Shown here: one piece after another, positions 99 through 38,390 of the stretch
How the letters are laid out: every line of letters starts with the position of its first letter
Position numbering within the stretch: position 1 is the stretch's first letter
Source: a virus
Virus record (IMG/VR): IMGVR_UViG_3300047321_000445
Coordinates: 1-64,000 of that record
DNA: 64,000 nt
Direction: 5' to 3' (one strand)
Made by a program: the position numbers and the translations under genes
The notes under the pieces: model-generated
The model's input: only the letters and a program-made list of their open reading frames with translations
What the model was told of the DNA's origin: nothing
The model's database searches: none

Positions 99-514
99 AA
101 CCGGTCACCCCCGGGGCGCCCGTGGCCGGGGCCGGCCTGACCGCTCGGGCCCGCCGTGGCGCGCCCCAAGTCAGCTACAGGAAGGCCTACAGGCTTTCCG
201 TCGTGTCCAGCTTCACGACGGCCAGGGCACGGCGCTACGCTGCCGCCCGTGACCCTGAAGCCGACGATGCGGCCCGGCCGGCCCCCGTGCGTGACGTCCA
301 GTTCGATCCGCAGGTCGAGGCCGTAGTAGTTCCTGATGTGCTCGCGGCTGCTTGCGATCCTGGCCCGGATGTTGGCGGCGTCCTCGCGCAGCTCCTCGAT
401 ACGGTCCTCGGCGCGCATGCGGTCCTCCCACGAGGCGTGCATGTACAGGTCGTTGGCCAGGGCGCGGGCCCGGCTCTCCATGGCTTCGGCCTCGGCGAGG
501 ATGGCGGCGCTCAC
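68..514 (-). CDS. Hypothetical protein downstream of the recombinase
   Basis: 148 aa, GTG start overlapping the previous stop as GTGA. The first 90 residues are charged and helical, rich in Glu, Arg and Ala, and look like a short coiled coil. The last 50 residues are Gly/Pro/Arg-rich and look like out-of-frame or weakly constrained sequence. The stop lies inside the 45-bp inverted repeat, so the C terminus may have been rewritten when that repeat arrived. It is the last gene of the recombinase operon. No family is recognised. Confidence 0.55.
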   Translation of the reverse strand: MSAAILAEAEAMESRARALANDLYMHASWEDRMRAEDRIEELREDAANIRARIASSREHIRNYYGLDLRIELDVTHGGRPGRIVGFRVTGGSVAPCPGRREAGHDGKPVGLPVADLGRATAGPSGQAGPGHGRPGGDRLAGVSTAPLL

Positions 515-909
515 CGGGAGATCTCGTCGGCCAGGTCGGAGTGTCCGGCCGCCGTGGCGATGGCGCGCAGAACCGCCGTGGTGTTCGTTCGGTCGAGGCT
601 GCGCAGGACGTCGCCCAGGTTGACGCCGGCGCCGTAGACCTGAATGGACAGGGCGATGTTGAGGATCGTCGTCTGGGTGGTGGAGGCGTGCAGCTCGCCA
701 CGGCCGAAGGCCTTCGCGAGTTCGATCCAGTCGAGCTGATACGGGGCGCCGTCGACCATCACGAACTGCGGGTGGAGGTAGGCGATGCGGCGTAGCCAGT
801 AGTCGTGCTCGATGAGCAGGCCGAGGGCGGCCGTCTCGGTGCCTTCGCGGGCGTACTTCTTGAGGCTGGCGGTCAGTTCGTCCGGGGCGAAGGTGTTGGC
901 AGTGGTCAC
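511..909 (-). CDS. Hypothetical protein cotranscribed with the recombinase
   Basis: 132 aa, GTG start overlapping the recombinase stop by GTGA, so translational coupling is likely. The protein is mostly helical and neutral, with an aromatic segment near residues 35-60 (YWLRRIAYLHPQF) and no recognisable catalytic motif. Its position directly after the Xer-like gene suggests an accessory role in recombination or plasmid stability, but that is inference from context only. Confidence 0.65.
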   Translation of the reverse strand: MTTANTFAPDELTASLKKYAREGTETAALGLLIEHDYWLRRIAYLHPQFVMVDGAPYQLDWIELAKAFGRGELHASTTQTTILNIALSIQVYGAGVNLGDVLRSLDRTNTTAVLRAIATAAGHSDLADEISR

Positions 910-1907
910 GAGAAGGCTCCAGCGAGCTTGTAGGCGGGGGACTTGTCGAGCTGTTCGCGGCCGAGGTCGTAGCGTTCCGTGGTGGTCGAGTGCGCGTGGC
1001 CCATGAAGATCTGCACGTCGCGCAGGGAGACCTTCATGTCGAGGAGCATGGTGGCGCAGGCGTGGCGCAGGGAGTGCGGGCTGATCTTCTTGGTGAGGCC
1101 GGCCGCGCGGGCGGCGGTCTCCACGATGTAGGCGACCTGGTGGCGGTCGATGCGTTCGCCCTCGTCGTCCAGGAACAGGGCGTTGGTCTGGTCGGTGCGG
1201 GTGGCGAGGTAGGCGTCGACCGCCGCGGCGGCGGGCGGGGCGAGCACCATGTCCTGCTCCTCGCCGCCCTTGCGGAGGACGGTGAGCACGCGGTGGCCGC
1301 GCTGGTGCGAGAGGTTGGCGACGTCGCGAGAGCAGACTTCGGAGACGCGCAGTCCGGCGTGGAGGAGGACGGACACCACGGCGCCGTCGAGCGGGGAGCG
1401 CAGGTGCGCGGCCGCCAGGAGCCGGGTGCCTTCGTCCCGGTCAGGGCCGAGGGTCTGTGACTTGCGGGAGACGGCGGGGAGGTTGAGCCGCTTGTGCCCG
1501 GGGACCGGGTTGCGGGTCAGCAGCTCCTCGTCCACGGCGTAGGTGTAGTAGCCGCGTACGGGAGAGATCTTGCGGGCGATGGTGGCCGGCCGGTGCGGGG
1601 CGTCCGGGTCGGGACGGTGGCGGCTGGCCGCAGGCGGGTTGTTGATCATCCACCGGACGTAGGCGTTCACGTGCAGGCGGCGGGCGGCGAGTGGCGGGGT
1701 GCCGTAGGAGTGGCAGAAGTCGAACCACTGGTTCAGGTCGCGCCGGTAGCCGTCGAGGGTGTTTGGGTTGTTGTAGCCGAGAAGGAACGCTTCGCGTGCT
1801 TGGTCGGATTGTCGGTCGAGCTTGGCGAGCTGCTGCCACTGGGCCGTGTCGTCGTCGTCCACGAGCTCGGCGTCGAGGACGGGAAGTTCGATGGGTGCAA
1901 GGGTCAT
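906..1907 (-). CDS. Xer-like tyrosine recombinase
   Basis: 333 aa, the length of XerC/XerD-type enzymes. These cut and rejoin DNA through a 3'-phosphotyrosine. The N-terminal half (about residues 35-140) is the SAM-like core-binding domain. The C-terminal catalytic domain shows R187 (HAGLRVSEV), K213 (LRKGG), H278-R281-H282 (HSLRH), H304 (GHAHS) and the nucleophile Y313 (ERYDLG), so it looks active. A symmetric dif-like site lies about 60-90 bp upstream of its start. Together they suggest plasmid dimer resolution rather than tRNA-site integration. ICE or prophage integration cannot be excluded, because an attP-type site would look asymmetric but could lie elsewhere. Two small genes follow in the same operon with overlapping stops and starts. 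Confidence 0.93.
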   Translation of the reverse strand: MTLAPIELPVLDAELVDDDDTAQWQQLAKLDRQSDQAREAFLLGYNNPNTLDGYRRDLNQWFDFCHSYGTPPLAARRLHVNAYVRWMINNPPAASRHRPDPDAPHRPATIARKISPVRGYYTYAVDEELLTRNPVPGHKRLNLPAVSRKSQTLGPDRDEGTRLLAAAHLRSPLDGAVVSVLLHAGLRVSEVCSRDVANLSHQRGHRVLTVLRKGGEEQDMVLAPPAAAAVDAYLATRTDQTNALFLDDEGERIDRHQVAYIVETAARAAGLTKKISPHSLRHACATMLLDMKVSLRDVQIFMGHAHSTTTERYDLGREQLDKSPAYKLAGAFS

Positions 1908-1963
1908 GATCGGGTCCGTCCAGTGAGGGGGCTGGGAACGGGTGTGCGGGGCAAGACTCCCAC

Positions 1964-2001
1964 GTCAGCGTCCGCATAACTTGCATTATGCGGACACTGA
2001 C
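1964..2001. other. dif-like recombination site
   Basis: Two 16-bp arms (1964-1979 and 1986-2001) form an inverted repeat with one mismatch around a 6-bp centre, CTTGCA. The inner 11-bp half-sites are CGTCCGCATAA and TTATGCGGACA. The CGCATAA-6 bp-TTATG layout is that of bacterial XerC/XerD dif sites. The left half matches Escherichia coli's XerC half-site at 9 of 11 positions. It sits in the promoter region of the recombinase gene. Confidence 0.75.
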
Positions 2002-6274: not shown

Positions 6275-7285
6275 ATGGCAGCCCCCCAGGCGGCCGGCGT
6301 TCAGGCCGGTAGCCAGACTCAGCACACCCAGAATCAGCCCTCCAACCCCTTCCGTCCCGCGACGAAGCAGAAGGCCAAGGCCCGTATCGCCCTCGGCGGC
6401 ATCGGCGGCTCAGGCAAGACGATGACCATGCTGAAGATCGCCTCGGCGCTGGTTCAGCCCGGCGAGCGGATCGCCGTGGTGGACACCGAGTACGGCTCGG
6501 CGTCCAAGTACGCGAAGGACTTCGAGTTCGATTCCCTGGAGAAGCGCAGCTTCGACCCGAGGGACCTGATCAAGACGGTCGCGGACGCCACCCGCTACGG
6601 GTACGGAGCGCTCTGCGTGGACACCTGGTCGCGGTACTGGTCCGGCAAGGGCGGCATGCTCGCCCTGGTCGACCAGCTCAGCAAGGGCCAGTTCAGCGGC
6701 TGGAAGGAAGTCCGCCCGATCGAGGAGGACATGATGGACGCCCTCCTGTCCTTCCCCGGGCATCTCCTCGTCACCGTCCGCTCGAAGACCGAGTACGTGG
6801 TCGAGCGCAACTCCGAGGGCAAGCAGTCCCCGAAGAAGATCGGCATGAAGTACGACCAGCGCGAAAACCTGGAGTACGAGTTCGACGTCGTCGGCGACAT
6901 GCAGGACGCCACGCTGACGGTGACGAAGACCCGTTGCCCCGACCTGCACGAGCTGGTCGTGCACAAGCCGGACCTGGAGTTCGGTTACACGATCCGTCAG
7001 TGGCTGGAGGACGGCGTCGATCCCGTCGCCACCGGGGCGTTCCGGGAACGGGCGCTCGCCGAGGGCGTCACGTTCGAGGAGTTGGGCGCCCTCATGCAGG
7101 AGGTCCGGGAGATGGGCATCCAGCACCGGCCTTCCAGCGATGCCAACTTCAGGCCGATGAGCCTGGAAATGGTCATTCAGAACCGTGGCCGCGAGGTCCG
7201 TGCCCAGATGCAGCAGTCCGGGACCGGGCGCGCCGCGTACGCGGCCGGCGTCGGCCAGCAGCAGGAGGAGGGCGCGGCAGCATGA
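6275..7285 (+). CDS. RecA/Sak4-like phage-type ATPase (AAA_24)
   Basis: 336 aa. Walker A at residues 41-49 (GGIGGSGKT), a Walker B-like CVDTWSRYW near residue 110, and VVDTEYGSASKYA after the first strand match phage AAA_24/Sak4-like RecA-fold ATPases, which help single-strand annealing or replication-linked recombination together with SSB. The N-terminal 30 residues are a disordered Gln/Ala linker and the C terminus is Gln/Gly-rich. An ATG with AAGGAG upstream fixes the start. A plasmid SSB (21886) and RusA resolvase (18803) would be natural partners. A simple NTPase role cannot be excluded. Confidence 0.8.
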   Translation: MAAPQAAGVQAGSQTQHTQNQPSNPFRPATKQKAKARIALGGIGGSGKTMTMLKIASALVQPGERIAVVDTEYGSASKYAKDFEFDSLEKRSFDPRDLIKTVADATRYGYGALCVDTWSRYWSGKGGMLALVDQLSKGQFSGWKEVRPIEEDMMDALLSFPGHLLVTVRSKTEYVVERNSEGKQSPKKIGMKYDQRENLEYEFDVVGDMQDATLTVTKTRCPDLHELVVHKPDLEFGYTIRQWLEDGVDPVATGAFRERALAEGVTFEELGALMQEVREMGIQHRPSSDANFRPMSLEMVIQNRGREVRAQMQQSGTGRAAYAAGVGQQQEEGAAA

Positions 7286-27475: not shown

Positions 27476-28036
27476 ATGCTCGGCTTCACCCGGTGCGCGT
27501 CCACAGCGTGCTTCACGCAGGCTGCGGAGTTCATAGTCGGAGTCCCCTTGTGCGACGAGCACATTGAAGCGCTCCGCGAACACTTCGTCCCCCCGAAGAA
27601 TCGCCCGAAGATCGACATGGCAGAGATCTTCCGGATCCGGGCCGAGAACGACGCCTCCCGGACGGTCATCACCGAGCGGGTCAGGCTGACCCCGGAGCAG
27701 AGCGGCACCGATCCGGGGTCAGCGGAAGCGCTGGGCTGCGTCTACTACATCACCTGGCGCAAAGACGACGAGTACATCAAGATCGGCACCTCCCAGAAGG
27801 CCAGCGCCAGATTCAAGCAGCTGACCACCTACACCGGAGACCGCCCTCGACTCCTGGTCGCAGAGCCCGGCGGACGCTCCCAGGAAGCGCTGCGGCACGA
27901 CCAGTTCGCGCACCTGCGGAAGCCCGGCACAGAGCTGTTCCAGTACACCAGCAAGATCGTCGACCACATCGCCGAGCTGCGCGAACGATTCCCGTACTAC
28001 CGCGACTTGACGGACGTCGGCCGCACCTACGACTGA
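27476..28036 (+). CDS. T5orf172/GIY-YIG-like protein
   Basis: 186 aa; ATG with AAGGAAA upstream. Residues about 82-150 (GCVYYITWRKDDEYIKIGTSQKASARFKQL, EALRHDQFAHLR, GTELFQYTSKIVDHI) match the T5orf172 variant of the GIY-YIG nuclease fold: a Y..K.G core, an Arg and a late Glu. The N-terminal 60 residues carry C/H pairs for a zinc site. Such phage proteins may be nucleases or only DNA-binding. The catalytic Glu is present (TELF), so nuclease activity is possible. Confidence 0.7.
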   Translation: MLGFTRCASTACFTQAAEFIVGVPLCDEHIEALREHFVPPKNRPKIDMAEIFRIRAENDASRTVITERVRLTPEQSGTDPGSAEALGCVYYITWRKDDEYIKIGTSQKASARFKQLTTYTGDRPRLLVAEPGGRSQEALRHDQFAHLRKPGTELFQYTSKIVDHIAELRERFPYYRDLTDVGRTYD

Positions 28037-28050
28037 CGAAAGGCCCAGCC

Positions 28051-28290
28051 ATGATCCCCGGCACCATCGGCGCAGCCGCCGCCTTCACCGCCCTCATCGT
28101 CCTCTGGGCAGGCATCCCCGCAGGCCTCTGGACACGCCCCAAGCGCCGCCCCACACGCCCCAGATGGGCACGAGGACGCCTCCGCGCCCGACTCCACACC
28201 CACCGCCACACCAGAACCCACCGCGCCACCACACGCCCCCGAACCCCCCGCCACCGCACCACACGCCCACACAACCGCACACCCCACTGA
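28051..28290 (+). CDS. Small basic membrane protein, tentative
   Basis: 79 aa with one hydrophobic segment (AAAAFTALIVLWAGIPAGLW) then a low-complexity Arg/Thr/His/Pro tail. It ends the operon. The tail composition could be noncoding, so confidence is limited. Confidence 0.4.
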   Translation: MIPGTIGAAAAFTALIVLWAGIPAGLWTRPKRRPTRPRWARGRLRARLHTHRHTRTHRATTRPRTPRHRTTRPHNRTPH

Positions 28291-28384
28291 CCCCGACCAC
28301 CAGGACCCCAGGTCATGAGGGTGGTGGCCGGCCCGGTAGGCCATGACGGTCCTCGCGCGTGAGTCGGCTCGGGACATGCGGATG

Positions 28385-28411
28385 CCCCCGGCCAAGTCGA
28401 GTGGCCGGGGG
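28385..28411 (-). terminator. CTCGACT-loop hairpin a
   Basis: Perfect 9-bp arms CCCCCGGCC/GGCCGGGGG around ACTCGACTT (read on the minus strand). It follows the stop of the minus-strand gene that ends at 28429. Confidence 0.85.
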
Positions 28412-28428
28412 GAGTCCAGGGGGGACCG

Positions 28429-29034
28429 TCACGCGGCCAGGGCGACCGCCTCAACCGCGGCGGCGAGAGCCGCGCGCCCGGCCTCGTTCACGGTGAAGGT
28501 CAGACCCTCTCCACGGGCGACCAGGCCCCGCTTGGCGAGGGAGGCGACGGTCCGCCCGTCCGTGGTCTCGCCGCGCTCCAGCGCCGCCGCCATGGCCGGG
28601 CCGACGATCCGCTCAGCCGGGTTCTTCGCGTTGGTCCGCTTCTTGTAGATCTCCAGGCGGTGGGCCCACTCGGCCTCGGCGTTCGCACGGACCGTCTCGT
28701 CGTCGGCCTTCAGCTGGGCCATCACCTCGGCGAAGGAGGTGACGACGATCGTCATCTCGCGGACCGTGACGGCCGCCGCGTCGTCCTCGGCGGCCTCGGC
28801 GATGACCTCGGCGATGACGTCGTGAAAGTCCAGGGCCTGGACGTCCTCGGCCGGGGCCGGCTCGACGACCTCGGTCTCCAGGCGGAGCTTGCCGGTCGGG
28901 GTGTAGACCCGGTGGACCAGGCCGGTCTCGGCGGTCAGCTTCGCGGCGAGCTTGTCGGCCGCCTTGCCCTCGGTGCGGGCGTCCACCTGGACGTCGTCGG
29001 CGGTGGTGATCGTGTAGGCCGGGGTCTTCGCCAT
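28429..29034 (-). CDS. wHTH-like protein, edge paralogue of the array (left)
   Basis: 201 aa. MAKTPAYTITT opens both this and the 42042 gene, which lies near the other edge in opposite orientation. The shared N-terminal 60 residues (EGKAADKLA, TAETGLVHRVYTPTGKLRLETEVVEPAPA) and C-terminal 70 (ERIVGPAMAAALERGETTDGR, SLAKRGLVARGEGLTFTVNEAGRAALAAA) are near identical. The C terminus looks like a winged-helix domain. The middle differs between the two. DNA-binding and control of the array are inference. It is read from a P-box promoter at 29090-29118. Confidence 0.75.
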   Translation of the reverse strand: MAKTPAYTITTADDVQVDARTEGKAADKLAAKLTAETGLVHRVYTPTGKLRLETEVVEPAPAEDVQALDFHDVIAEVIAEAAEDDAAAVTVREMTIVVTSFAEVMAQLKADDETVRANAEAEWAHRLEIYKKRTNAKNPAERIVGPAMAAALERGETTDGRTVASLAKRGLVARGEGLTFTVNEAGRAALAAAVEAVALAA

Positions 29035-29089
29035 GGTGAGCTCCTCAGGTTGGTGGGGCCGGTCTTCCCGTGCCCCGTTCGCAAGACCT

Positions 29090-29118
29090 ACTGTACATAC
29101 GTCCCGACGTGAAAACAA
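29090..29118 (-). promoter_or_regulatory. P-box promoter 1
   Basis: Minus strand: TTGTTT, 17-bp spacer TCACGTCGGGACGTATG, TACAGT, then the conserved AGGTCTTGCGAACGGGG leader. Belongs to a set of 15 near-identical promoters in 29-49 kb. Confidence 0.8.
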
Positions 29119-29147
29119 GTAGGTGGGGGAAACTCCCCGAACACGAC

Positions 29148-29182
29148 TGCGCCCCCGGCCGAGTCGAGCGGCCGGGGGCGCA
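29148..29182 (-). terminator. CTCGACT-loop hairpin b
   Basis: 13-bp arms TGCGCCCCCGGCC/GGCCGGGGGCGCA, loop GCTCGACTC on the minus strand, after the 29196-29531 gene. Confidence 0.85.
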
Positions 29183-29195
29183 GCGGGGGCGAGGG

Positions 29196-29531
29196 TCAGG
29201 CGGTGCGCTGGGGGTCGGCGTAGAAGGCGCGGATGGCCTGCCACTGCTCCCGGGGGAGCTCGCTTGCGCGGGCGGTCCACCAGGCGCCGGGGCTGCCGGT
29301 GGGGGCGAAGCCGACGGGGAACTCCGTCAGCTCCCCGGTGTGGCTGTACGCGATCTGGGAGTGGCCGTTCGGGCTCTGCAGGGTGGGGCGCGGCACGAGG
29401 AGGCCCACGCGGCGGCGACCCTCCTGCGCGCCGCCGTGGGGCGAGCCCTCGTACAGGGCGACCCAGCGGGGCCGGCTGCCGTAGCGGATGGAGCTGTTGC
29501 GGATGCGGCGGGTGTCGGCGGGCTCGGTCAT
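29196..29531 (-). CDS. Array gene, hypothetical
   Basis: 111 aa; ATG with GAGAGGA upstream. Central beta-rich segment (RYGSRPRWVALYEGSPHG, RRVGLLVPRPTLQS) and a final WQAIRAFYADPQRT. No domain is recognised. It starts just beyond hairpin c and may be cotranscribed with the 29603 gene when read-through occurs. Confidence 0.65.
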   Translation of the reverse strand: MTEPADTRRIRNSSIRYGSRPRWVALYEGSPHGGAQEGRRRVGLLVPRPTLQSPNGHSQIAYSHTGELTEFPVGFAPTGSPGAWWTARASELPREQWQAIRAFYADPQRTA

Positions 29532-29555
29532 GAGAGTCCTCTCGTGGTGCGAGTG

Positions 29556-29590
29556 CTGCGCCCCGGCCAAGTCGAGTGACCGGGGCGCAG
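29556..29590 (-). terminator. CTCGACT-loop hairpin c
   Basis: 13-bp arms (CTGCGCCCCGGTC/GGCCGGGGCGCAG on the minus strand, one G-U), loop ACTCGACTT, between two minus-strand genes. Confidence 0.8.
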
Positions 29591-29602
29591 CGGGCGTGAG
29601 GG

Positions 29603-29896
29603 TCAGGCGGTGAAGTTGACGTCGGGCCAGTAGACGATCAGGTCCTTGCCCATGGCGTCGGTCCGGACGCGGTCGGCGAGGTCCATGGCCTCCTCGTGGC
29701 GGTCCTCGTCGGCGAGGGTCAGGGCGAGGGCGGTGAGGAACGGGGCGAGGGCGCCCGGGGGGATGACGACGGCCGCGCAGGTGGCGTTGAAGCCGTGCCC
29801 GTAGGCGGGCCGGATCAGGGACTCCTCCTCGTTGATGCTGGCGCGGTCCAGGGCGTCGGTGACGTCCTGGCGGGTGAGGGAGGCGGTGAGGTACAT
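29603..29896 (-). CDS. Array gene, paralogue family B member 1
   Basis: 97 aa; ATG with AAAGGA upstream. LTRQDVTDALDRASI, FLTALALTLADEDRHEEAMDLADRVRT and a final IVYWPDV match the 31365 product (LSRKDFTEACERAQ, FLAAMALIMADGGRSSDAVHLVARVRT, MAFWPDA). A small alpha/beta protein of unknown role transcribed from P-box 2. Confidence 0.7.
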   Translation of the reverse strand: MYLTASLTRQDVTDALDRASINEEESLIRPAYGHGFNATCAAVVIPPGALAPFLTALALTLADEDRHEEAMDLADRVRTDAMGKDLIVYWPDVNFTA

Positions 29897-29953
29897 GCGG
29901 TGGTCCTTTCGGATCGGGCGGGGCCGGTGGTGTCCGGCCCCGCTGTAAGACTT

Positions 29954-29982
29954 AGAGTACGCCCGTCCCGACCGTTTAGCAA
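29954..29982 (-). promoter_or_regulatory. P-box promoter 2
   Basis: Minus strand: TTGCTA, 17-bp spacer AACGGTCGGGACGGGCG, TACTCT, AAGTCTTA leader. The inverted CCGAC arms are present. Confidence 0.75.
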
Positions 29983-30004
29983 GTCGGGACGGGAGGACAG
30001 CGGG

Positions 30005-30412
30005 TCAGGACACGCGGTGCCCGCCCTCGTACACCCAGTGGATCACCGCGTACGTCGCGTCCACCCGGCGCTCCTGGATCCGCCTGATCGCCGCGTCCCG
30101 CAGCTCCCGGGCGTACGCGTAGGACTGCGCGCCCTCCGTGTACACGATGTCCGTGAAGCGCACGCCCGTGTCGGACAGGTGGCTGTACGCCACCACGTAG
30201 CCGATGACGTCGTGCAGACCGTGCTGGCAGCCCGCGCAGCCCTCCAGCGGGGTCAGCGGCGGGATGGCCGCGCTGGTCACGTACCCGGGAGTGACGCCGG
30301 GCGCAGCGTCCTCGGGCCGCGCCAGCGCCCAGTTGGCACGGAAGGTGACCGACACCCCGTCGGCCTGGTCCGCGCCCAGGTTGAGCATGTCCGGCTTCGG
30401 CTGCTGGTCCAT
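30005..30412 (-). CDS. Array gene, hypothetical
   Basis: 135 aa; ATG with GAGAGGA upstream. A helical/beta mixture with CAGCQHGLHDVIGYVVAYSHL, QSYAYARELRDAAIRRIQERRVDATYAVIHWVYEG. The CxxCxxH could bind metal. Family unknown. No hairpin separates it from promoter 2. Confidence 0.65.
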   Translation of the reverse strand: MDQQPKPDMLNLGADQADGVSVTFRANWALARPEDAAPGVTPGYVTSAAIPPLTPLEGCAGCQHGLHDVIGYVVAYSHLSDTGVRFTDIVYTEGAQSYAYARELRDAAIRRIQERRVDATYAVIHWVYEGGHRVS

Positions 30413-30465
30413 CTGGCGTCCTCTCGCTCTCGGGGCCGGTGGTTCCGGTCCCGCTTGATAGAAGA

Positions 30466-30494
30466 AGAGTACCCCCGTCCCAACCATTACGCAA
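30466..30494 (-). promoter_or_regulatory. P-box promoter 3
   Basis: Minus strand: TTGCGT, 17-bp spacer AATGGTTGGGACGGGGG, TACTCT. One of the more diverged copies; the second arm of the operator is degenerate. Confidence 0.7.
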
Positions 30495-30518
30495 GTCGGG
30501 ACGGGAGGAATGTGCAGG

Positions 30519-30842
30519 TCAGGCCACAGACAAGACCACGCCATCCCACCACGGCGCCACCACCGCGAACACGTCGCCGTTGACCAGCGCCACCGACTCG
30601 GCCGTCCGCAACGGGTCCGCCCCGTCCTGTATCGCGGCCGTCAGCAGCCCCAGCGCACCCACCCGGCTGATCGCCGCGGACTGCTCGCCCACGGACATGC
30701 GGAACGAGTCGCCAGCCGGGAGCAGCACGAGCGCGTGCTCGATCGCGGTTGCAGTGACCGGCCGGAAGCCGGCCCGACGACGTCCCGGCTTGTCACTCGG
30801 GGGGAAGTCCATCCAGCGGGGCAGGGTGATCGGTTCGGCCAT
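30519..30842 (-). CDS. Array gene, hypothetical
   Basis: 107 aa; ATG start with GAGAGGA upstream. Starts MAEPITLPRWMDFPPSD, and has helical ISRVGALGLLTAAIQDGADPLRT. Function unknown. Possibly read with the 30903 gene from P-box 4, with a hairpin between them. Confidence 0.6.
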   Translation of the reverse strand: MAEPITLPRWMDFPPSDKPGRRRAGFRPVTATAIEHALVLLPAGDSFRMSVGEQSAAISRVGALGLLTAAIQDGADPLRTAESVALVNGDVFAVVAPWWDGVVLSVA

Positions 30843-30867
30843 GGCCGTCGTCCTCTCTGGGGGTCGA

Positions 30868-30894
30868 CTGGGGGCCGGCCGATCCGGCCCCCAG
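30868..30894 (-). terminator. Hairpin between array genes, loop variant
   Basis: 11-bp arms CTGGGGGCCGG/CCGGCCCCCAG. GTCGACT stands just outside the stem rather than in the loop. Confidence 0.7.
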
Positions 30895-30902
30895 GGAATA
30901 CG

Positions 30903-31190
30903 TCAGGCGGCGTCCGGAACGGTCCGCAGCGCGCTCATGGCGGCGTCCGTGACGTCCATCGTCTGGCCCCAGGTCGCCTCGACGTCCAGGAACTCGCTGC
31001 CGCCGAAGCCGTCGCGGCCGACGATGCGGGCCTTGACCGGGTCGCTGCCGCTCGCTGCGGGGACCAGGACCGTCCAGGTGTAGGAGCCGTAGGTGACCTC
31101 GGCGGTCGCGCCGAGGTTCGTGCGCTTCCACGAGCCGCGTGCGGCTGCGATGGAGAAGACCAGCTCGGCGGTCGCGGGCGTGATGTCCAT
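30903..31190 (-). CDS. Array gene, hypothetical
   Basis: 95 aa; ATG start, GGAAGGAA upstream. Beta-rich, with TYGSYTWTVLVPAAS and KARIVGRDGFGGSEF; a small globular protein with no recognised family, read from P-box 4. Confidence 0.65.
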   Translation of the reverse strand: MDITPATAELVFSIAAARGSWKRTNLGATAEVTYGSYTWTVLVPAASGSDPVKARIVGRDGFGGSEFLDVEATWGQTMDVTDAAMSALRTVPDAA

Positions 31191-31244
31191 GGGGTTCCTT
31201 CCGGCTGGGGAGGGGCGGTTGTTCCGGTCCCTTCAACACGCCTA

Positions 31245-31273
31245 AGAGTACAGGGGTCCCGACGTGAAAACAA
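31245..31273 (-). promoter_or_regulatory. P-box promoter 4
   Basis: Minus strand: TTGTTT, spacer TCACGTCGGGACCCCTG (17), TACTCT, TAGG leader. It diverges from P-box 5 over 20 bp. Confidence 0.8.
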
Positions 31274-31286
31274 GTAGGGATGAGAC

Positions 31287-31315
31287 TGGATTTACCGTCG
31301 GGACACGTGTACTAT
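31287..31315 (+). promoter_or_regulatory. P-box promoter 5 (variant -35)
   Basis: TGGATT, 17-bp spacer TACCGTCGGGACACGTG, TACTAT. The right half of the box is conserved and the -35 side is diverged. This is the point where array transcription changes direction. Confidence 0.65.
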
Positions 31316-31364
31316 AGGGATCACCGGGGCGGGAACGACCCGCCCCACCAGCGAAAGGACGACA

Positions 31365-31640
31365 GTGCTCGAACTCTCCCGCAAGGACTTCACCGAGGCC
31401 TGCGAGCGGGCCCAGGTCTGGGGCTCCGTCACCGTCGACCCCCACCAGGGGCGCGGCGCCACCGGCCCCGGCCTGACTCTCCCGGTCGCCAAGGTGAACG
31501 ACTTCCTCGCCGCCATGGCCCTGATCATGGCTGACGGGGGTCGCAGCTCCGACGCGGTGCACCTCGTCGCCCGGGTCCGTACCGAGCCCCAGGGGCGCGG
31601 CGTGATGGCCTTCTGGCCGGACGCGGTCCTGGTCGACTGA
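31365..31640 (+). CDS. Array gene, paralogue family B member 2
   Basis: 91 aa, GTG with AAAGGA upstream. Paralogue of the 29603 product on the other side of the divergent promoters. GRGVMAFWPDAVLVD ends it. Function unknown. Confidence 0.7.
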   Translation: MLELSRKDFTEACERAQVWGSVTVDPHQGRGATGPGLTLPVAKVNDFLAAMALIMADGGRSSDAVHLVARVRTEPQGRGVMAFWPDAVLVD

Positions 31641-31645
31641 TGAGC

Positions 31646-31678
31646 CTGCCCCCGGTCGCTCGACTCGACCGGGGGCAG
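31646..31678 (+). terminator. CTCGACT-loop hairpin d
   Basis: 13-bp arms CTGCCCCCGGTCG/CGACCGGGGGCAG around CTCGACT, six bases after a stop codon. Confidence 0.85.
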
Positions 31679-31693
31679 TGTCGTAGTCCAGAC

Positions 31694-31722
31694 TTGTTTT
31701 CACGTCCGGACACGTGTACTGT
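31694..31722 (+). promoter_or_regulatory. P-box promoter 6
   Basis: TTGTTT, spacer TCACGTCCGGACACGTG (17), TACTGT, CTGTCTTGTGA leader; one base of the GTCGGG arm differs. Confidence 0.8.
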
Positions 31723-31768
31723 CTGTCTTGTGAGGCCGGAACAGACCGGCCCCCACGGAAGGAGCCCC

Positions 31769-32332
31769 ATGGACACCCTCCCCGCCTTCACCCCGCTGCC
31801 CGTCTGGACCCCCCAGCTCCGCATGACCGCCCTCGGCTTCACGGCCGAACAGCACGCCATCGTCGACTCCGAGACCGCCAACCGCCGCATCGCCATGGTC
31901 ACCGAGCTCCGCGACCGCGCCGAGACCGCCGAGCGCGACGGCAGCCCGACGGCCGGCATGCTGCGCACCATGCTGGAGCGCGCCGTCGCCTCCGCCCAGC
32001 GCGCACAGACCCGCTGCACCAACAGCGGGGCGCTGCGCACCGACTGCACCACCTGCGACCACAGCCGTCAGCTGGAGCTGCTCGCCCAGGCCGGCGCCTG
32101 GAAGGAGGGGGACTACATCACCTGGCCCGGCGTCGAGCCGGACTGCTACCTCCTCACAGGCGTCAACCGCTTCTACATCACGTACGAGGCCCGCGACGGC
32201 TACCGCGCGACCGTCGACGACACGATCGGCATGTCCCTCGCCGACAAGATCAAGGACTGGCAGCCCGCCACGCCCGAGCAGATCGCCCGCTTCGAGCGCC
32301 TCTACCAGCCCGCCCCCTCCAACTGGGACTGA
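31769..32332 (+). CDS. Array gene, hypothetical with CxxC
   Basis: 187 aa; ATG with GGAAGGAG upstream. A helical N-terminal half (VDSETANRRIAMVTELRDRAETAERDG) and a middle CTTCDHSRQLELL. The C-terminal part is ITYEARDGYRATVDDTIGMSL. Unknown role. Confidence 0.7.
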   Translation: MDTLPAFTPLPVWTPQLRMTALGFTAEQHAIVDSETANRRIAMVTELRDRAETAERDGSPTAGMLRTMLERAVASAQRAQTRCTNSGALRTDCTTCDHSRQLELLAQAGAWKEGDYITWPGVEPDCYLLTGVNRFYITYEARDGYRATVDDTIGMSLADKIKDWQPATPEQIARFERLYQPAPSNWD

Positions 32333-32340
32333 CCCGCCCC

Positions 32341-32371
32341 TGCGCCCGGCTACTCGACTGAGCCGGGCGCA
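32341..32371 (+). terminator. CTCGACT-loop hairpin e
   Basis: Arms TGCGCCCGGCT/AGCCGGGCGCA, loop ACTCGACTG. Confidence 0.85.
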
Positions 32372-32439
32372 GCCGCTCCACCCGCCCATCCCCGAGGACC
32401 GGACCGGCCGGCCCCGACCCGCTGAGGGAGGAACCACCA

Positions 32440-32847
32440 ATGATCACCACCGCTGTCACCGACACGGCCGCCGCCCAGACCATCACGCTGCGCACCATCA
32501 CCGGCGACGAGCTGTTCACCGCCACCCGCATGACGGCCGAGGGGCTGCGCGCCTGGCGTTGGGTGCTGCACGGCCTGGAGACCGAGCACGTGCTGTGCAG
32601 CAAGGTGAGCGGGTGGCACCCCCGCGGCTACGTCGTCGCCGACCAGGACGGCCGCCACGTCGGCGTCGTCATCGAAGGCGGCGGGCGCGTCCACGCCGAG
32701 TGGTACGACCCCAGCCGCGAGGACTACTTCTACGCCGGGGCCGGCTCGCGCCTCGCGCACGGTGTCAACGCCGTCCGTGGTCAGCAGGTCTGGGCGCAGC
32801 GTCACCCGTGGAACCCCGCCCCCGTGGCGCGCACCCTCGCCGCATAG
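32440..32847 (+). CDS. Array gene, hypothetical
   Basis: 135 aa; ATG with GAGGGAGGA upstream. Beta-rich with ETEHVLCSKVSGWHPRGYVVADQDGRHVGVVIEGGGRV and a WNPAP tail. It has no promoter of its own, so it is probably reached by read-through of hairpin e or an unseen promoter. Confidence 0.65.
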   Translation: MITTAVTDTAAAQTITLRTITGDELFTATRMTAEGLRAWRWVLHGLETEHVLCSKVSGWHPRGYVVADQDGRHVGVVIEGGGRVHAEWYDPSREDYFYAGAGSRLAHGVNAVRGQQVWAQRHPWNPAPVARTLAA

Positions 32848-32862
32848 ATTCTCCGTCCCGAC

Positions 32863-32891
32863 TTGTCATCATGTCGGGACGGGAGTAATGT
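32863..32891 (+). promoter_or_regulatory. P-box promoter 7
   Basis: TTGTCA, spacer TCATGTCGGGACGGGAG (17), TAATGT. Perfect operator arms GTCCCGAC (32856-32863 side) and GTCGGGAC flank the -35. A hairpin follows directly. Confidence 0.75.
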
Positions 32892-32898
32892 CAGTGCT

Positions 32899-32932
32899 GC
32901 GGCGGCGACCACTCGACTTGGCCGCCCGCCGC
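32899..32932 (+). promoter_or_regulatory. CTCGACT-loop hairpin f, between promoter and gene
   Basis: GCGGCGGCGACC (32899-32910) pairs with 32920-32932 (one bulge) around ACTCGACTT. It begins near the expected start of transcription of P-box 7 and lies before the TTG start of the DUF3560 gene, so it is part of that leader. Confidence 0.75.
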
Positions 32933-32962
32933 ACCACCCACCCGAGATACGGAGACACTCCC

Positions 32963-34384
32963 TTGACCGAGACCACCACCACCCCGACGGCCACCGACGA
33001 GCCCGAGACCCCCGAGTGCCGCCAGCACGGCCCCATGGTGCTGCGCACCAACATCCAGGCCCCCGCCACGGCCACCTGGTACTGCCCTGACGAGGTCTGC
33101 ACCAACACGGTGCTGCACCCGGCGAAGGACACCCCGCGCAAGGGCGAGATCGCCATCGTCCACACCCGCGCCGACGGCACCCTCCTGGAGGGCTCCCGCA
33201 AGGGCGACGGCGTATGGGAGATCGTCCGCGAGCACGGCTTCCGGTCCTCCCGCAACATCGGCCTGTACATCCAGCAGTCCCGCGACAAGGCCGCCAAGCG
33301 CTGGTACATAGACCGTGCCGCCGAGGCCCTGCGCGCGGCCGGCTGGACCGTCGTCATCGACATCGACGAGGACACCCGGCGCAGCTTCGCCGAGGCCGAG
33401 GCGGACCGCGTGGAGCGCGCAGGGAACCGCGCCGACCGGTTCGACGGGTACGCCGACAACGCCGCCTCGCGCTCCGACGCCGCCTATGCCGGGGTCAAGC
33501 GGATCGCCGACGGGATACCGATGGGCCAGCCGATCCTGGTCGGCCACCACAGCGAGGCCGGGGCGCGCCGGGACGTCGCGCGTATGGACGCCGGGATGCG
33601 CCGCAGCATCGACGAGGGCGACAAGGCCGCGCACTGGGCCAGCCGCGCCAAGGCCGCAGGCTCGTACGAGGAGTTCCGGAAGGCTCCGGGGCGCACGCTG
33701 CGCCGCATCGCCAAGCTGGAGGCCGACCTGCGCCGTGTCGAGAAGTGGCTGCGCGGCGAGAGCGCGGGCGGCTTCACCCGGGACCTCACGCCCGCCACGG
33801 TCGCCGAGTTGAACCGGCGCAAGGAGGAGCTGGAGGAAGAGATCGGGTTCTGGCGGCACGTCATTGCCAAGGCCGAGGAAGGCGGCTTCAAGGTCTGGGG
33901 CAAGGCCGACTTCAAGCGCGGCGACTTCGTCCTGTACGGCGGCACCTGGTACGAGGTGCTGCGCGTCAACGCCAAGTCCGTGTCGATCCCGCACATCCAC
34001 AACGGCACCGGCCGCAGGGTCGTGCGCAAGGGCGACGGCCACGTGGCGGACTGGACCTGGTTGGCCCCGTACGACGACGTGCGCGGCCGCAGGACGGCCG
34101 AGGAGCAGGCGGCTGTGGAATCGCCCGCCGAACCGGTCGCCGAGGCCGCTGTGGAGGACGAGAGGCCCGCGCGCTTCGCCGTGGCGATCGAGACCGACGA
34201 GCGGGAGTGGATGCGGTTCCACGAGCGGGACCGCGCGGTCGCCTGCGCGGCGGGCTACGGGCTCGGTGAGGAGTACGTCAAGGACACCCACGAGCCGGCT
34301 GCCGAGGCCGCTGAGGGCGCGGAGAAGCCCGCCGCCGCGGTGCCCGTGATGCACGAGGACCGGTTCCTGCCGCTGGACCGCTGA
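32963..34384 (+). CDS. DUF3560 protein
   Basis: 473 aa from a TTG with ACGGAGA upstream; no earlier start has a ribosome site. Residues about 150-245 (RADRFDGYADNAASRSDAAYAGVKRI, PMGQPILVGHHSEAGARRDVARMDAGMRRSIDEG, AAHWASRAKAA) are the DUF3560 domain found on many conjugative plasmids. A CRQHG..CPDEVC zinc-like site lies near residues 20-50. The C-terminal 100 residues are acidic. Function of DUF3560 is unknown; plasmid leading regions often carry it, which suggests establishment or anti-defence roles. The largest gene of the array. Confidence 0.8.
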   Translation: MTETTTTPTATDEPETPECRQHGPMVLRTNIQAPATATWYCPDEVCTNTVLHPAKDTPRKGEIAIVHTRADGTLLEGSRKGDGVWEIVREHGFRSSRNIGLYIQQSRDKAAKRWYIDRAAEALRAAGWTVVIDIDEDTRRSFAEAEADRVERAGNRADRFDGYADNAASRSDAAYAGVKRIADGIPMGQPILVGHHSEAGARRDVARMDAGMRRSIDEGDKAAHWASRAKAAGSYEEFRKAPGRTLRRIAKLEADLRRVEKWLRGESAGGFTRDLTPATVAELNRRKEELEEEIGFWRHVIAKAEEGGFKVWGKADFKRGDFVLYGGTWYEVLRVNAKSVSIPHIHNGTGRRVVRKGDGHVADWTWLAPYDDVRGRRTAEEQAAVESPAEPVAEAAVEDERPARFAVAIETDEREWMRFHERDRAVACAAGYGLGEEYVKDTHEPAAEAAEGAEKPAAAVPVMHEDRFLPLDR

Positions 34385-34397
34385 GCCCCTGGAGTTG

Positions 34398-34434
34398 CTG
34401 CGCCCCTGACCCGGTCGAGTGGTCGGGGGCGCAG
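34398..34434 (+). terminator. CTCGACT-type hairpin g, loop in reverse orientation
   Basis: 14-bp arms CTGCGCCCCTGACC/GGTCGGGGGCGCAG with loop CGGTCGAGT, the reverse complement of the usual motif. Transcribed with the + strand gene before it, the RNA loop would differ, so a DNA-level role or a different direction of use should be considered. Confidence 0.75.
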
Positions 34435-34485
34435 TCGCGTCCGGGGTCGGCTGCGCCCTGACCAGCAAGGTTTCCAGGAAGGGAC

Positions 34486-34514
34486 TTGCTTTCACGTCGG
34501 GACGGGTGTACCTT
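34486..34514 (+). promoter_or_regulatory. P-box promoter 8
   Basis: TTGCTT, spacer TCACGTCGGGACGGGTG (17), TACCTT, AAGTCTTGTGAACGGGG leader. Confidence 0.8.
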
Positions 34515-34556
34515 AAGTCTTGTGAACGGGGCACACCGCCCCCGAAGGGAGAGACG

Positions 34557-35396
34557 ATGATCGCCCACAAGCCCACCCTCGCCACGGTCCTCGCAGTCAG
34601 GCCGGCCCAGCTCACCAGCCTCACCCCGGTCGAGATCGACCGCATGAACCTGGTCCTCTGGACAGAGGTCGACCGCCGAGAGGCCGCCGTCGACCGGGCC
34701 GAGGACCGTCTCTTCAGCGCCCTGCTGATCGACAAGGAGAGCGTCCGCCACGGGCGCGGCTGGCGCCAGGTCTGGCCGGTCAGCGTGACCGAGGCGGAGC
34801 GGCTCGCCCGCGAACACCTCGACACGGGTTACGAGATCAGCGACCGCGACAAGCTGATGCGCGGCCTGCACGGCAACCGCTACGCCGAGCAGCTGGCCGC
34901 AGCAGTCGACACGCTGGTGGCCGGCCGGGCCGCGGTGAAGGAGCTCACCGGCGGTCCCGTCGAAGTCCTGGACGACGAGTACCGCCGTCGGGGCGGCTGG
35001 TCGCGCATGCACCTCTGCCTCACTGACGGAGGCCACATCCACACCGGCCGCGAGTGCCCGAGCATCGGCCCCTCCACCCAGCTGGCATGGCTGCCCGAGG
35101 TCTCTGGCATGGACTGGCGCGAGGCGTTCGAGACGGTGATCGCCAAGAGCATGGCGGGGAGCACCCAGGTGATCATGTGCACCAAGTGCTACCGGGACGC
35201 GCCCACCGAGTGGACCGAGAAGCAGGCCGACCCCAACGAGTGCCCCATGTCCCGCAAGGACGCGTTCGAGCACATGACGCCCAAGCAGCGCCGCCTGCAC
35301 CGCAAGTACGCCACCTGCCCGGGGTGCCAGGAGGGCGTGAGCGTGACGAGCGCCTGGAAGTTCCGCAAGCACGGCAAGCCGCAGCGCGCGGTCTGA
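34557..35396 (+). CDS. Array gene, hypothetical with zinc-like C terminus
   Basis: 279 aa; ATG with GGGAGAG upstream. Helical first 150 residues. The C-terminal 100 have RMHLCLTDGGHIHTGRECPSIG and MCTKCYRD, CPMSRKD, CPGCQEG, probably two zinc sites. Similar proteins occur in Streptomyces phages. Function unknown. Confidence 0.7.
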   Translation: MIAHKPTLATVLAVRPAQLTSLTPVEIDRMNLVLWTEVDRREAAVDRAEDRLFSALLIDKESVRHGRGWRQVWPVSVTEAERLAREHLDTGYEISDRDKLMRGLHGNRYAEQLAAAVDTLVAGRAAVKELTGGPVEVLDDEYRRRGGWSRMHLCLTDGGHIHTGRECPSIGPSTQLAWLPEVSGMDWREAFETVIAKSMAGSTQVIMCTKCYRDAPTEWTEKQADPNECPMSRKDAFEHMTPKQRRLHRKYATCPGCQEGVSVTSAWKFRKHGKPQRAV

Positions 35397-35407
35397 CCGG
35401 CAGCTGG

Positions 35408-35440
35408 CTGGGGCCTGGCACTCGACTTGCCAGGCCCCAG
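35408..35440 (+). terminator. CTCGACT-loop hairpin h
   Basis: 13-bp arms CTGGGGCCTGGCA/TGCCAGGCCCCAG around CTCGACT. The stem sequence is unlike its neighbours while the loop is unchanged. Confidence 0.85.
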
Positions 35441-35484
35441 CCCCGGGCTCGGCCCCGGTCTGCGCGGGAGTCTTGGCGTCCGAC

Positions 35485-35513
35485 TTGTTTTCACGTCGGG
35501 ACGTATGTACTCT
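35485..35513 (+). promoter_or_regulatory. P-box promoter 9
   Basis: TTGTTT, spacer TCACGTCGGGACGTATG (17), TACTCT, AGGTCTTGTCAACGG leader; identical spacer to P-box 1. Confidence 0.8.
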
Positions 35514-35551
35514 AGGTCTTGTCAACGGAACACCGACCCACGGAGGACCCC

Positions 35552-35893
35552 ATGATGATCACCCTCGACCTCCCCGAGGCCCTGAGCTACGAGATCGTCT
35601 ACACGGCCGCGACGACCTGCCTGGCCAACCGTCGCTCGGGCATCTTCGAGTCCATCTCCATCCCTGCCGCCGAGAACCCCGCCGACGGCTGGAACCTGCG
35701 CCTCGTGGCCCTGAACAAGAAGGACGGCAGCACGCTCCTGGTGGACCTGCTGCGCCCCGTGGACGAGCGCTCCCCGTTCGCCGCCAGCGCCCGCGAGCGC
35801 CTGGCCGGAGGCGAGCGCCTGGCCATGCTGCTGGACCTGCTGCCCGAGCAGGCGCGCGGCGAGGTCATCCGCATCCCGCTCACCCGGGACTGA
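35552..35893 (+). CDS. Array gene, hypothetical
   Basis: 113 aa; ATG with GGAGGA upstream. Beta-rich (ITLDLPEALSYEIVYTAATTCL, NLRLVALNKKDGSTLLVDLLRP), ending in a helical RLAGGERLAMLLDLLPEQ. Family unknown. Confidence 0.7.
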   Translation: MMITLDLPEALSYEIVYTAATTCLANRRSGIFESISIPAAENPADGWNLRLVALNKKDGSTLLVDLLRPVDERSPFAASARERLAGGERLAMLLDLLPEQARGEVIRIPLTRD

Positions 35894-35910
35894 CCCACCC
35901 CCCCCAGCTC

Positions 35911-35941
35911 CGCCCCCGGCTACTCGACTTGGCCGGGGGCG
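35911..35941 (+). terminator. CTCGACT-loop hairpin i
   Basis: 11-bp arms CGCCCCCGGCT/GGCCGGGGGCG with a G-U pair, loop ACTCGACTT. Confidence 0.85.
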
Positions 35942-35973
35942 GCCGCCCACCCACCCACCGGAAGGACCCCAGC

Positions 35974-36555
35974 ATGACGACCGCAGCCGCAGGCCTCGGC
36001 GGGCTCATCGCCCGCGCAGCCCCGTTCACCTCGTACCGCACGTACACGTACAACACAGACCCGAACGTCCCGGGCATCCAGGGGCTTGCCACGGTCGCCG
36101 AAGCCACGGAGCTGGTGCGCGCCCACGTGGCTGCTGACAGCCGGCTGCGCAGCACGGCGGCGACCCCCTACGGCGCGGTCATCCTGCACCAGGGCGACAC
36201 GCATATCCGGCTGGAGCCGGGCATCGACGCTCGCCCCCAGCGGCTGACCGGGCGCCAGGCCGACGACCTGCTGCTGATCGGCCGTGTTCAGGACCGGGCG
36301 AAGGTCGTGTGGGAGCCGGCCAAGGGGTGGGCGACGGTCCAGGGCGGGGTGTGGCGCATCCCCGCGGTTTCCACGGAGCGGCTGGTCAGGCGTGGATGGA
36401 TCGCCACGGAGGGCGCCGACGGGGCCCTGGTGACCGTCTCCCTGGCTGGGGTGGTCGCCCTGCAGTGGCGCTACCTCAAGGGCGAGCGGGTGTCGTCGAC
36501 TGCGCGCTGGGCGGAGGACGTGGCCGAGCATGTCGTGGACGTATTCTCCTCGTGA
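35974..36555 (+). CDS. Array gene, hypothetical
   Basis: 193 aa; ATG with GGAAGGA upstream. Helical and beta segments (QGLATVAEATELVRAHVAADSRL, YGAVILHQGDTHIRLEPG) and a C-terminal wHTH-like stretch (WRIPAVSTERLVRRGWIATEGADGALVTVSLAGVVAL). It may be a DNA-binding protein; not proven. No promoter between it and the previous gene. Confidence 0.65.
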   Translation: MTTAAAGLGGLIARAAPFTSYRTYTYNTDPNVPGIQGLATVAEATELVRAHVAADSRLRSTAATPYGAVILHQGDTHIRLEPGIDARPQRLTGRQADDLLLIGRVQDRAKVVWEPAKGWATVQGGVWRIPAVSTERLVRRGWIATEGADGALVTVSLAGVVALQWRYLKGERVSSTARWAEDVAEHVVDVFSS

Positions 36556-36561
36556 CCCGAC

Positions 36562-36590
36562 TTGCTTTAACGTCGGGACGCCTGTACCTT
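36562..36590 (+). promoter_or_regulatory. P-box promoter 10
   Basis: TTGCTT, spacer TAACGTCGGGACGCCTG (17), TACCTT, AGGTCTTGTGAACGGGG leader. No hairpin lies between the previous stop and this promoter. Confidence 0.8.
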
Positions 36591-36638
36591 AGGTCTTGTG
36601 AACGGGGCACACCGCCCCGACCGACCGAGGAGGACCCC

Positions 36639-37157
36639 ATGGCCATCACCACCGCGACCGCCACCGGCCAGGCCGAAGCCGACCGCCTGCGCGCCTCGGC
36701 CCGCCAGCACGAAGCGGACGTGATCGAGTCCCGCGACCGCTGCGACACCGACGGCTTCCTCTCCCAGTGGGCGTCCGGCCGCATGGCCGGCCTGGACTAC
36801 CTCGCGGCCGAGATCGCCGAGGCGGGCGGCAAGTGGGACTTCGGCGGCCTCTTCGACCTGGAGGGCAACCTGGTCCCGGCCATCCGGCTCCAGAACCGCT
36901 ACGACGGCTGGTCCTGGAAGCTCCTGGACGAGCGCGGCCGGTGCGCTGGCTGGTTCAACGAGTCCAAGGCCAAGACCGAGGAGCGGCGCGTGGCCGCCCA
37001 CGCCAAGCAGGGCTTCTACGTCGGCCGCGTCCGCGTCCCGGCCAAGGCCGAGATGCAGGGCGGCAACTACTTCTCGGTGCGGGCGGTCCCGGTCCGCCTG
37101 GACGAGGGCTGGGACCCGGAGGCCGAGATCCTCGACAACGGCCAGCCCACGGCCTGA
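36639..37157 (+). CDS. Array gene, hypothetical
   Basis: 172 aa; ATG with GGAGGA upstream. Helical N terminus (QAEADRLRASARQHEADVIESRDR) and a beta-rich C-terminal half (LEGNLVPAIRLQNRYDGWSWKLLDERGR, GFYVGRVRVPAKAEM). No family identified. Confidence 0.7.
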   Translation: MAITTATATGQAEADRLRASARQHEADVIESRDRCDTDGFLSQWASGRMAGLDYLAAEIAEAGGKWDFGGLFDLEGNLVPAIRLQNRYDGWSWKLLDERGRCAGWFNESKAKTEERRVAAHAKQGFYVGRVRVPAKAEMQGGNYFSVRAVPVRLDEGWDPEAEILDNGQPTA

Positions 37158-37174
37158 CACCCCGCCCCTTGGCT

Positions 37175-37203
37175 GCGCCCGGCCACTCGACTTGGCCGGG
37201 CGT
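37175..37203 (+). terminator. CTCGACT-loop hairpin j
   Basis: 10-bp arms GCGCCCGGCC/GGCCGGGCGT, loop ACTCGACTT. Confidence 0.85.
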
Positions 37204-37239
37204 GGCCGCCCCCGCCACAAGCCCCAGGAGTAGAGCCCC

Positions 37240-37554
37240 ATGAGCAACCCGCCCACCTCCATCGCCGACCAGCGGCAGGCCTGGAAGAGACTTCGCCCCG
37301 AGGCTCTCGCCCAGCTCGCCACGACCATGAACGCCGCCGAGATAGCCGACGCCTTCGGCGTGGCCCGCCCGGCCGTGGAGCAGCGTCTCGCGTACCACGG
37401 TCTCGTCGCCTGCGTCGGTGGCCCCACGCCCCGCCGCAAGCTCGTCCACAACCGGCTCATCCACTGCCCCGCCACCACGACGCTCGGCACCGTCTGCGGC
37501 GCGCCCCAGGAGCCTGACGGCACCTGCCGGTGGGCCCACCAGCACACGGCCTGA
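37240..37554 (+). CDS. Array gene, HTH-like protein with CxC end
   Basis: 104 aa; ATG with CCAGGAG upstream. TTMNAAEIADAFGVARPAVEQRLAYHGLV is a helix-turn-helix. The C terminus (CPATTTLGTVCGAPQEPDGTC) carries three Cys and a His, perhaps zinc-binding. A possible regulator of nearby units. Confidence 0.65.
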   Translation: MSNPPTSIADQRQAWKRLRPEALAQLATTMNAAEIADAFGVARPAVEQRLAYHGLVACVGGPTPRRKLVHNRLIHCPATTTLGTVCGAPQEPDGTCRWAHQHTA

Positions 37555-37570
37555 CACCCCCCTCCCTGGT

Positions 37571-37601
37571 TGCGCCCGGCCACTCGACTTGGCCGGGCGC
37601 A
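37571..37601 (+). terminator. CTCGACT-loop hairpin k
   Basis: 11-bp arms TGCGCCCGGCC/GGCCGGGCGCA, loop ACTCGACTT. Confidence 0.85.
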
Positions 37602-37651
37602 GCCGCCCCGCTCATCCATCCCCGCTCCATCACCCTCCCGAGGAGAGATCC

Positions 37652-37942
37652 ATGGACACCACCGCTGCATCCACGGCCGGCGCCGAGGACACCCGCCGCG
37701 ACTGGGCCATCGTCGCCATCACCTCCCAGTCCATCCACTGCGCCGACAGGCAGGCCGCCGAGGAGGTGGCTGAAGACCGCCCGCACCTCACGGTCGTCTC
37801 GCGGCCGCTCGGGGGCGAGTGGGAGCCGCTGTCGCAGCCGGTCGTCCCGGTCGACCTGGGGCCGCTGAGCGACGAGCAGCTGGCGGCGCTCCAGTTCGAG
37901 GCCGCGCGGCTGTTGGCGCGCCGTCAGGGCCGCGCGCTGTAG
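37652..37942 (+). CDS. Array gene, hypothetical
   Basis: 96 aa; ATG with GGAGAGA upstream. Short helices (RQAAEEVAEDRPHL) and a Pro/Leu segment; the C terminus is helical (DEQLAALQFEAARLLARRQG). Unknown. No own promoter. Confidence 0.6.
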   Translation: MDTTAASTAGAEDTRRDWAIVAITSQSIHCADRQAAEEVAEDRPHLTVVSRPLGGEWEPLSQPVVPVDLGPLSDEQLAALQFEAARLLARRQGRAL

Positions 37943-37958
37943 TTCCTGCTGAGTCCTG

Positions 37959-37989
37959 CTGCGCCCCGGTCGACATGGCCGGGGCGCAG
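37959..37989 (+). terminator. Hairpin l, degenerate loop
   Basis: 11-bp arms CTGCGCCCCGG/CCGGGGCGCAG. The loop TCGACATGG keeps only TCGAC. Confidence 0.75.
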
Positions 37990-38040
37990 TCGCGTTCGGG
38001 GGTGGGCTGTGCCCTGACCAGCGGGTTTTCACCCCTAGGC

Positions 38041-38069
38041 TTGCATGCACGTCGGGACACGTGTACTCT
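38041..38069 (+). promoter_or_regulatory. P-box promoter 11
   Basis: TTGCAT, spacer GCACGTCGGGACACGTG (17), TACTCT, AGGTCTTGTGAACGGGG leader. Confidence 0.8.
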
Positions 38070-38115
38070 AGGTCTTGTGAACGGGGCAACGCCCCACCCG
38101 ACCGAGGAGGACCCC

Positions 38116-38376: not shown

Positions 38377-38390
38377 CCCACCATCCGCCC

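Follow-up and report, generated by a model that had tools for sequence, protein, structure and literature searches.

How an unintegrated Streptomyces phage-plasmid is kept monomeric is the question raised by the first 2 kb of this window (the whole stretch of 64,000 nucleotides analysed, from an IMG/VR virus record of 97,310 bp and 70% GC), where a tyrosine recombinase gene lies beside a dif-like palindrome. A preliminary description read the two as a Xer-like recombinase and a replicon-borne site for dimer resolution on a circular plasmid, and the pairing for dimer resolution is the reading best supported here, through matches of the enzyme to Xer proteins, the linkage of gene and site, and 23 sites of the same form at related loci. 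The Streptomyces chromosome is usually linear and has less need of a dif site; for a phage-plasmid resident in such a host, this reading predicts a means of staying monomeric.

The recombinase gene (906-1907, minus strand) is complete and encodes 333 amino acids, with a Phage_integrase domain (PF00589, 1.5e-26) and a SAM-like core-binding domain (Phage_int_SAM_1) at residues 47-126. The catalytic set of tyrosine recombinases is intact (R187, K213, H278, R281, H304 and Y313, unchanged in 16 relatives), the protein is the sole PF00589 member of the record, and a search of the record for a serine recombinase (PF00239) found none. Its nearest NCBIfam models are XerD (E 3.5e-41) and XerC, at scores far below the curated cut-offs (141 bits vs. 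329.6 for XerD, 134 vs. 335 for XerC), and its PDB sequence matches are led by XerA (3.7e-17) and XerD (4.5e-17), with Cre not among them. The top fold matches of an AlphaFold2 model (mean pLDDT 86) are XerA, XerD and XerH bound to difH; against Xer structures without DNA, the TM-scores are modest and the rmsd is high, which a different arrangement of the domains would probably explain. Core-binding helices start at about residue 18 in this model, too near the N terminus for an arm-binding domain of the lambda type to fit. At its 3′ end, the gene shares 4 bp with an ORF of 132 amino acids (511-909, minus strand), a probable operon partner with no match in Pfam, PHROG or NCBIfam and no homologue at the related loci searched.

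In front of the recombinase gene, at 1969-1996 on the minus strand, is the candidate dif-like recombination site, TGTCCGCATAA-TGCAAG-TTATGCGGACG (plus-strand reading CGTCCGCATAA-CTTGCA-TTATGCGGACA), composed of two 11-bp arms (1986-1996 and 1969-1979) around a 6-bp spacer (1980-1985). The 11-6-11 layout first described is confirmed, with 10 of 11 arm positions complementary and the recombinase ATG (minus strand) 61 bp downstream, and the palindrome is longer than these 28 bp, reaching from 1965 to 2000 with 15-bp arms and one mismatch. The site is intergenic and has the make-up expected of a dif-like site (~28 bp, two inverted 11-bp arms, a central hexamer and a low-GC ATAA/TTAT core). Its core takes the same form as that of E. 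coli dif, ATAA-TGTATA-TTAT (whole site GGTGCGCATAATGTATATTATGTTAAAT; PMC2731167), the two sites having CGCATAATG...TTATG in common. The unequal arms of XerCD/dif are not seen, the arms being identical at 10/11 positions and the record holding one recombinase gene. Across the 97,310-bp record, ATAA-N6-TTAT occurs only at this site; the palindrome pattern has no second match in window or record, and the exact palindrome is absent from the viral contig collection. Perfect 10-6-10 palindromes number three in the record including the dif-like site, vs. 0.15 expected from simulation; the remaining two are GC-rich, and 20 simulated records yielded no such palindrome with at least 40% AT or with an ATAA/TTAT core.

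The site was then sought in the 3-kb flanks of 76 related recombinase genes (214 kb on one side and 195 kb on the other, ~409 kb). ATAA-N6-TTAT occurs there 23 times, always upstream of the gene once the loci L185 and L186 are oriented (both lie on the minus strand and, being unoriented, were first scored as downstream; their sites are 0.4-0.6 kb upstream), for a chance expectation of 0.12 in 524 kb under an order-1 Markov model. These occurrences are not independent, as they represent about twelve lineages, and the one at L021 lacks outer symmetry and may have arisen by chance. With near-duplicates removed, AT-rich palindromes are commoner upstream of the related genes (p 3e-4). Bearers of the site include the S. 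platensis and S. decoyicus phage-plasmids, pSLE1 and pSAM1, as well as loci of Micromonospora, Pseudonocardia, Nonomuraea, Arenivirga and Actinoallomurus; the plasmids among them are mostly annotated as circular (the exception is a linear record, L017), and those nearest to the window recombinase are complete circular plasmids. The nearest relative of all, from a Catenulispora MAG contig (L100; 58% identity in the search, 52% in the alignment), shows no ATAA-N6-TTAT-type site in 8.9 kb. Fifty-odd of the 76 relatives, notably a clade of Gordonia and Arthrobacter phages, are without the site and annotated as integrases, so that homology alone cannot choose between resolution and integration. Alignment queries were needed for these searches, single-protein scans of viral and genome contig collections having returned no relatives of the recombinase.

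Within this set, the ATAA-N6-TTAT core is constant and the spacers variable, and the arms vary among lineages and are kept within each, as in GGGGAACATAA-TCCAAG-TTATGTTCCCC (L049) and CAGGAACATAA-TTCAGG-TTATGTTCCGC (L032); Arenivirga and Actinoallomurus have the same CACACGATAA arms around unlike spacers. At position 12, 16 of 18 sites have T, and at position 17 every one of them has G or C. Sites lie 30 to 1900 bp upstream of the gene, often with another gene intervening. Two overlapping palindromes are present at the S. platensis and S. decoyicus loci (L005:29631-29667 and L006:11797-11832), CTCCATAA-CAGCGA-TTATGGAG and TAACAGCGATT-ATGGAG-AATCGCTGTTA, the arm of one running into the spacer of the other; the S. 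platensis site had been taken as TAACAGCGATT-6-AATCGCTGTTA and was replaced by the former, which fits the ATAA-N6-TTAT rule. In Arenivirga flava (L207-L216), an element of ~64 kb with recombinase and site stands in tandem across chromosome-contig ends and again as a 60-kb contig, which reflects tandem integration or else an artefact of the assembly; integration at the site was considered for this case and dropped, as the site is inside the tandem element and not at its ends.

The replicon that carries the window pair combines phage and plasmid genes. Terminase, portal, maturation protease and tape-measure genes (67-85 kb of the record) occur together with a DUF2637-type protein of 542 amino acids as on pFP4 and SCP2 (52887-54515, plus strand), TraA-like (54773-55474, plus) and FtsK/SpoIIIE-type TraB-like (55480-57603, plus; E 1.5e-129) plasmid transfer proteins, both below curated cut-offs, and a GntR/UTRA regulator (43925-44674, minus) that resembles regulators of Streptomyces conjugative plasmids and has a counterpart at the corresponding position of the S. 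platensis phage-plasmid. The stretch from DUF2637 to FtsK has 75% DNA identity over 5.3 kb to the module of pFP4, a circular Streptomyces plasmid-phage of 41 kb that is not among the 40 best recombinase matches listed; pZL12 is another described Streptomyces plasmid-phage, according to a citation in PMC7157519. Judged by this gene content, the element is a Streptomyces phage-plasmid and not a plain large plasmid, which refines the first description.

The S. platensis phage-plasmid NZ_CP108975 is a circular record of 92,975 bp and has a circular gene order in common with the window record (recombinase, HTH, DciA-like, RusA, ssb, GntR, terminase, tail-end genes), on which the break of the latter falls between the tail genes and the recombinase. 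From this agreement around the whole circle, the map is likely to be circular and the record close to complete, although the 97,310-bp record has no terminal repeats, and support for circularity is for that reason indirect. A physically circular replicon is predicted from the colinearity with a circular relative, and the phage probably lives as a circular plasmid. A ParA gene was sought in the record and not found (the ATPase at 6275-7285 was dropped as a candidate, its best match being AAA_24), nor was any convincing partition gene; the record's single ParB_N match, at 64319, is probably not one, as its neighbour is PAPS-reductase-like. The latter lies in a group of two PAPS-reductase-like genes followed by the ParB_N-domain protein (window 61250-62287 and record 62472-64594), which recalls ibrA/ibrB or DNA-modification modules.

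Other features of the element are set down here in their own right. Some twenty intergenic hairpins with GC-rich 9-11-bp stems and a near-constant loop, A-CTCGACT-T, are spread over window positions 28,000-43,300 and ~95.4 kb of the record; they occur in either orientation between consecutive genes and resemble a terminator or regulatory element present in many copies. Palindromes at 44767-44798 (beside the GntR gene) and 52855-52886 (just before the DUF2637 gene) have the form GTCCTAGG(A/T)CA with a 10-bp centre and are candidate GntR operators, and recurrent palindromes of the CCCGTCCCGAC...GTCGGGACGGG type at 29962, 30474, 32852 and 40424 are possible sites of another regulator. At 45261-47395, a Radical SAM/SPASM gene adjoins a PCMT-type methyltransferase gene, a possible peptide-modification cassette on a phage.

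We propose, with a probability of roughly 0.8, that 906-1907 and 1969-1996 form a self-sufficient dif-like system in which a single recombinase resolves dimers of the phage-plasmid. The prophage would be kept as a circular plasmid in Streptomyces, where fusion of two copies by homologous recombination would yield a dimer bearing a pair of directly repeated sites. On each of these sites, the near-identical arms would be occupied by two recombinase protomers, which would cut the DNA on either edge of the 6-bp spacer TGCAAG. Strand exchange between the paired sites would then free the monomers, and the asymmetry of the spacer would give the site its direction. Binding, cleavage positions and dimer resolution in vivo are, for the window recombinase, predictions from sequence.

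Once a cell is infected, the same reaction could also serve to circularise the phage DNA or reduce it to monomers. That this is the main role, with resolution of plasmid dimers secondary, would accord with the packaging and tail genes of the element and with phage P1, in which Cre-lox serves both purposes; the gene-site pair is also found, however, on circular plasmids of Verrucosispora and Micromonospora not known here as phages, and we consider such a ranking of the two roles rather unlikely.

A quite unlikely reading takes the recombinase for a phage integrase of the usual kind, with 1969-1996 as an attP that recombines with a chromosomal attB. In its favour, the Gordonia and Arthrobacter phage homologues (34-36% identity) are annotated as integrases and the PHROG matches of the recombinase are so called, and the authors of the pSLE1 study proposed insertion for their putative integrases (PMC4487206). 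The lambda-type arm-binding domain is nevertheless absent from the predicted structure, the nearest site-bearing relatives are the complete circular plasmids mentioned above, and two chromosomal relatives have the site once per surrounding 120 kb, without an attL/attR pair. Insertion at a tRNA or other host site, which the preliminary description had itself set against dimer resolution, could be checked in part: the window contains no tRNA, and the full site at up to one mismatch occurs in 0 of 393 Streptomyces genomes, a search that would miss an att core shared over a short length. Sites with 2-3 mismatches were found in 20 of these genomes, and a control pattern gave no fewer.

The palindrome could also be an operator through which the recombinase gene is autoregulated, and its place, 61 bp ahead of the start codon, is where one would expect it. 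We regard this as very improbable: among relatives the motif ranges widely in distance and often lies past another gene, its invariant part is the dif-like core around variable spacers, and no sigma-70-type promoter was found around the site. Scarcely credible, finally, is a mimic of host dif used by host XerC/XerD and unrelated to the phage enzyme, since despite the core match to E. coli dif the near-identical arms are better suited to a single protein than to a pair, a phage-type recombinase gene accompanies the site in many lineages, and no gene in 61 Streptomyces genomes passes the curated XerC/XerD cut-off (a weak point, as these cut-offs miss most control genomes too).

Dimer resolution by the window pair may be one case of a broader pattern. 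We would give even odds to the view that a broad set of actinobacterial Xer-like recombinases act at ATAA-N6-TTAT sites of their own, with arms that have diverged from lineage to lineage, and that plasmids and phage-plasmids of several families are served in this way by a natural collection of mutually orthogonal pairs, comparable to Cre-lox and suitable for GC-rich hosts. An upstream ATAA-N6-TTAT may provide a rule by which actinobacterial tyrosine recombinases can be sorted into probable resolvases and probable integrases, and the survey yields a list of divergent enzyme-site pairs for orthogonality testing.

By analogy with known systems, the best explanation of the window pair is a functional likeness to MrpA/mrpS of SCP2, XerH/difH and Cre/lox. 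SCP2, a circular plasmid of S. coelicolor, likewise has a single tyrosine recombinase, MrpA, to which the resolution of plasmid multimers is ascribed (PMC3218068). MrpA is only 24% identical to the window recombinase (E 7e-4) and sits on a long branch of the tree, but the N-terminal motif AELVDD is common to MrpA, the window protein, S. platensis and L020 (GELVDD in S. decoyicus). About 50 bp upstream of the SCP2 recombinase gene is a dif-like palindrome, CTTGATAA-CGTTCC-TTCTCTAG, a candidate for mrpS; its core, GATAA-CGTTCC-TTCTC, is one position off ATAA-N6-TTAT, unlike the window site. The linkage of gene and palindromic site on a circular actinobacterial plasmid is thus of the MrpA/mrpS type, with the circle of the window replicon read from its relative. 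Closer at hand, the phage-plasmids of S. platensis (NZ_CP108975) and S. decoyicus (NZ_CP109340) have recombinases 38-42% identical to that of the window, ATAA-N6-TTAT upstream and a colinear gene order around the circle, whereas the arms differ, two palindromes overlap there and the downstream genes are different.

XerH/difH and XerS/difSL similarly pair one Xer-like enzyme with a dif-like site, sometimes beside the gene (PMC2731167). Both are chromosomal dimer-resolution systems, in contrast to the phage-plasmid pair described here, and identity to XerH is 14-16% in the fold alignment. Phage-plasmid P1 likewise has a single tyrosine recombinase, Cre, with an adjacent symmetric site, but loxP has an 8-bp spacer and 13-bp arms, vs. 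6 bp between ATAA and TTAT in the window and its relatives, and the window recombinase is closer in sequence to Xer than to Cre. Overall, the window pair is of a kind already known, and it is the recurring, diversified gene-site pairs that are most worth pursuing.
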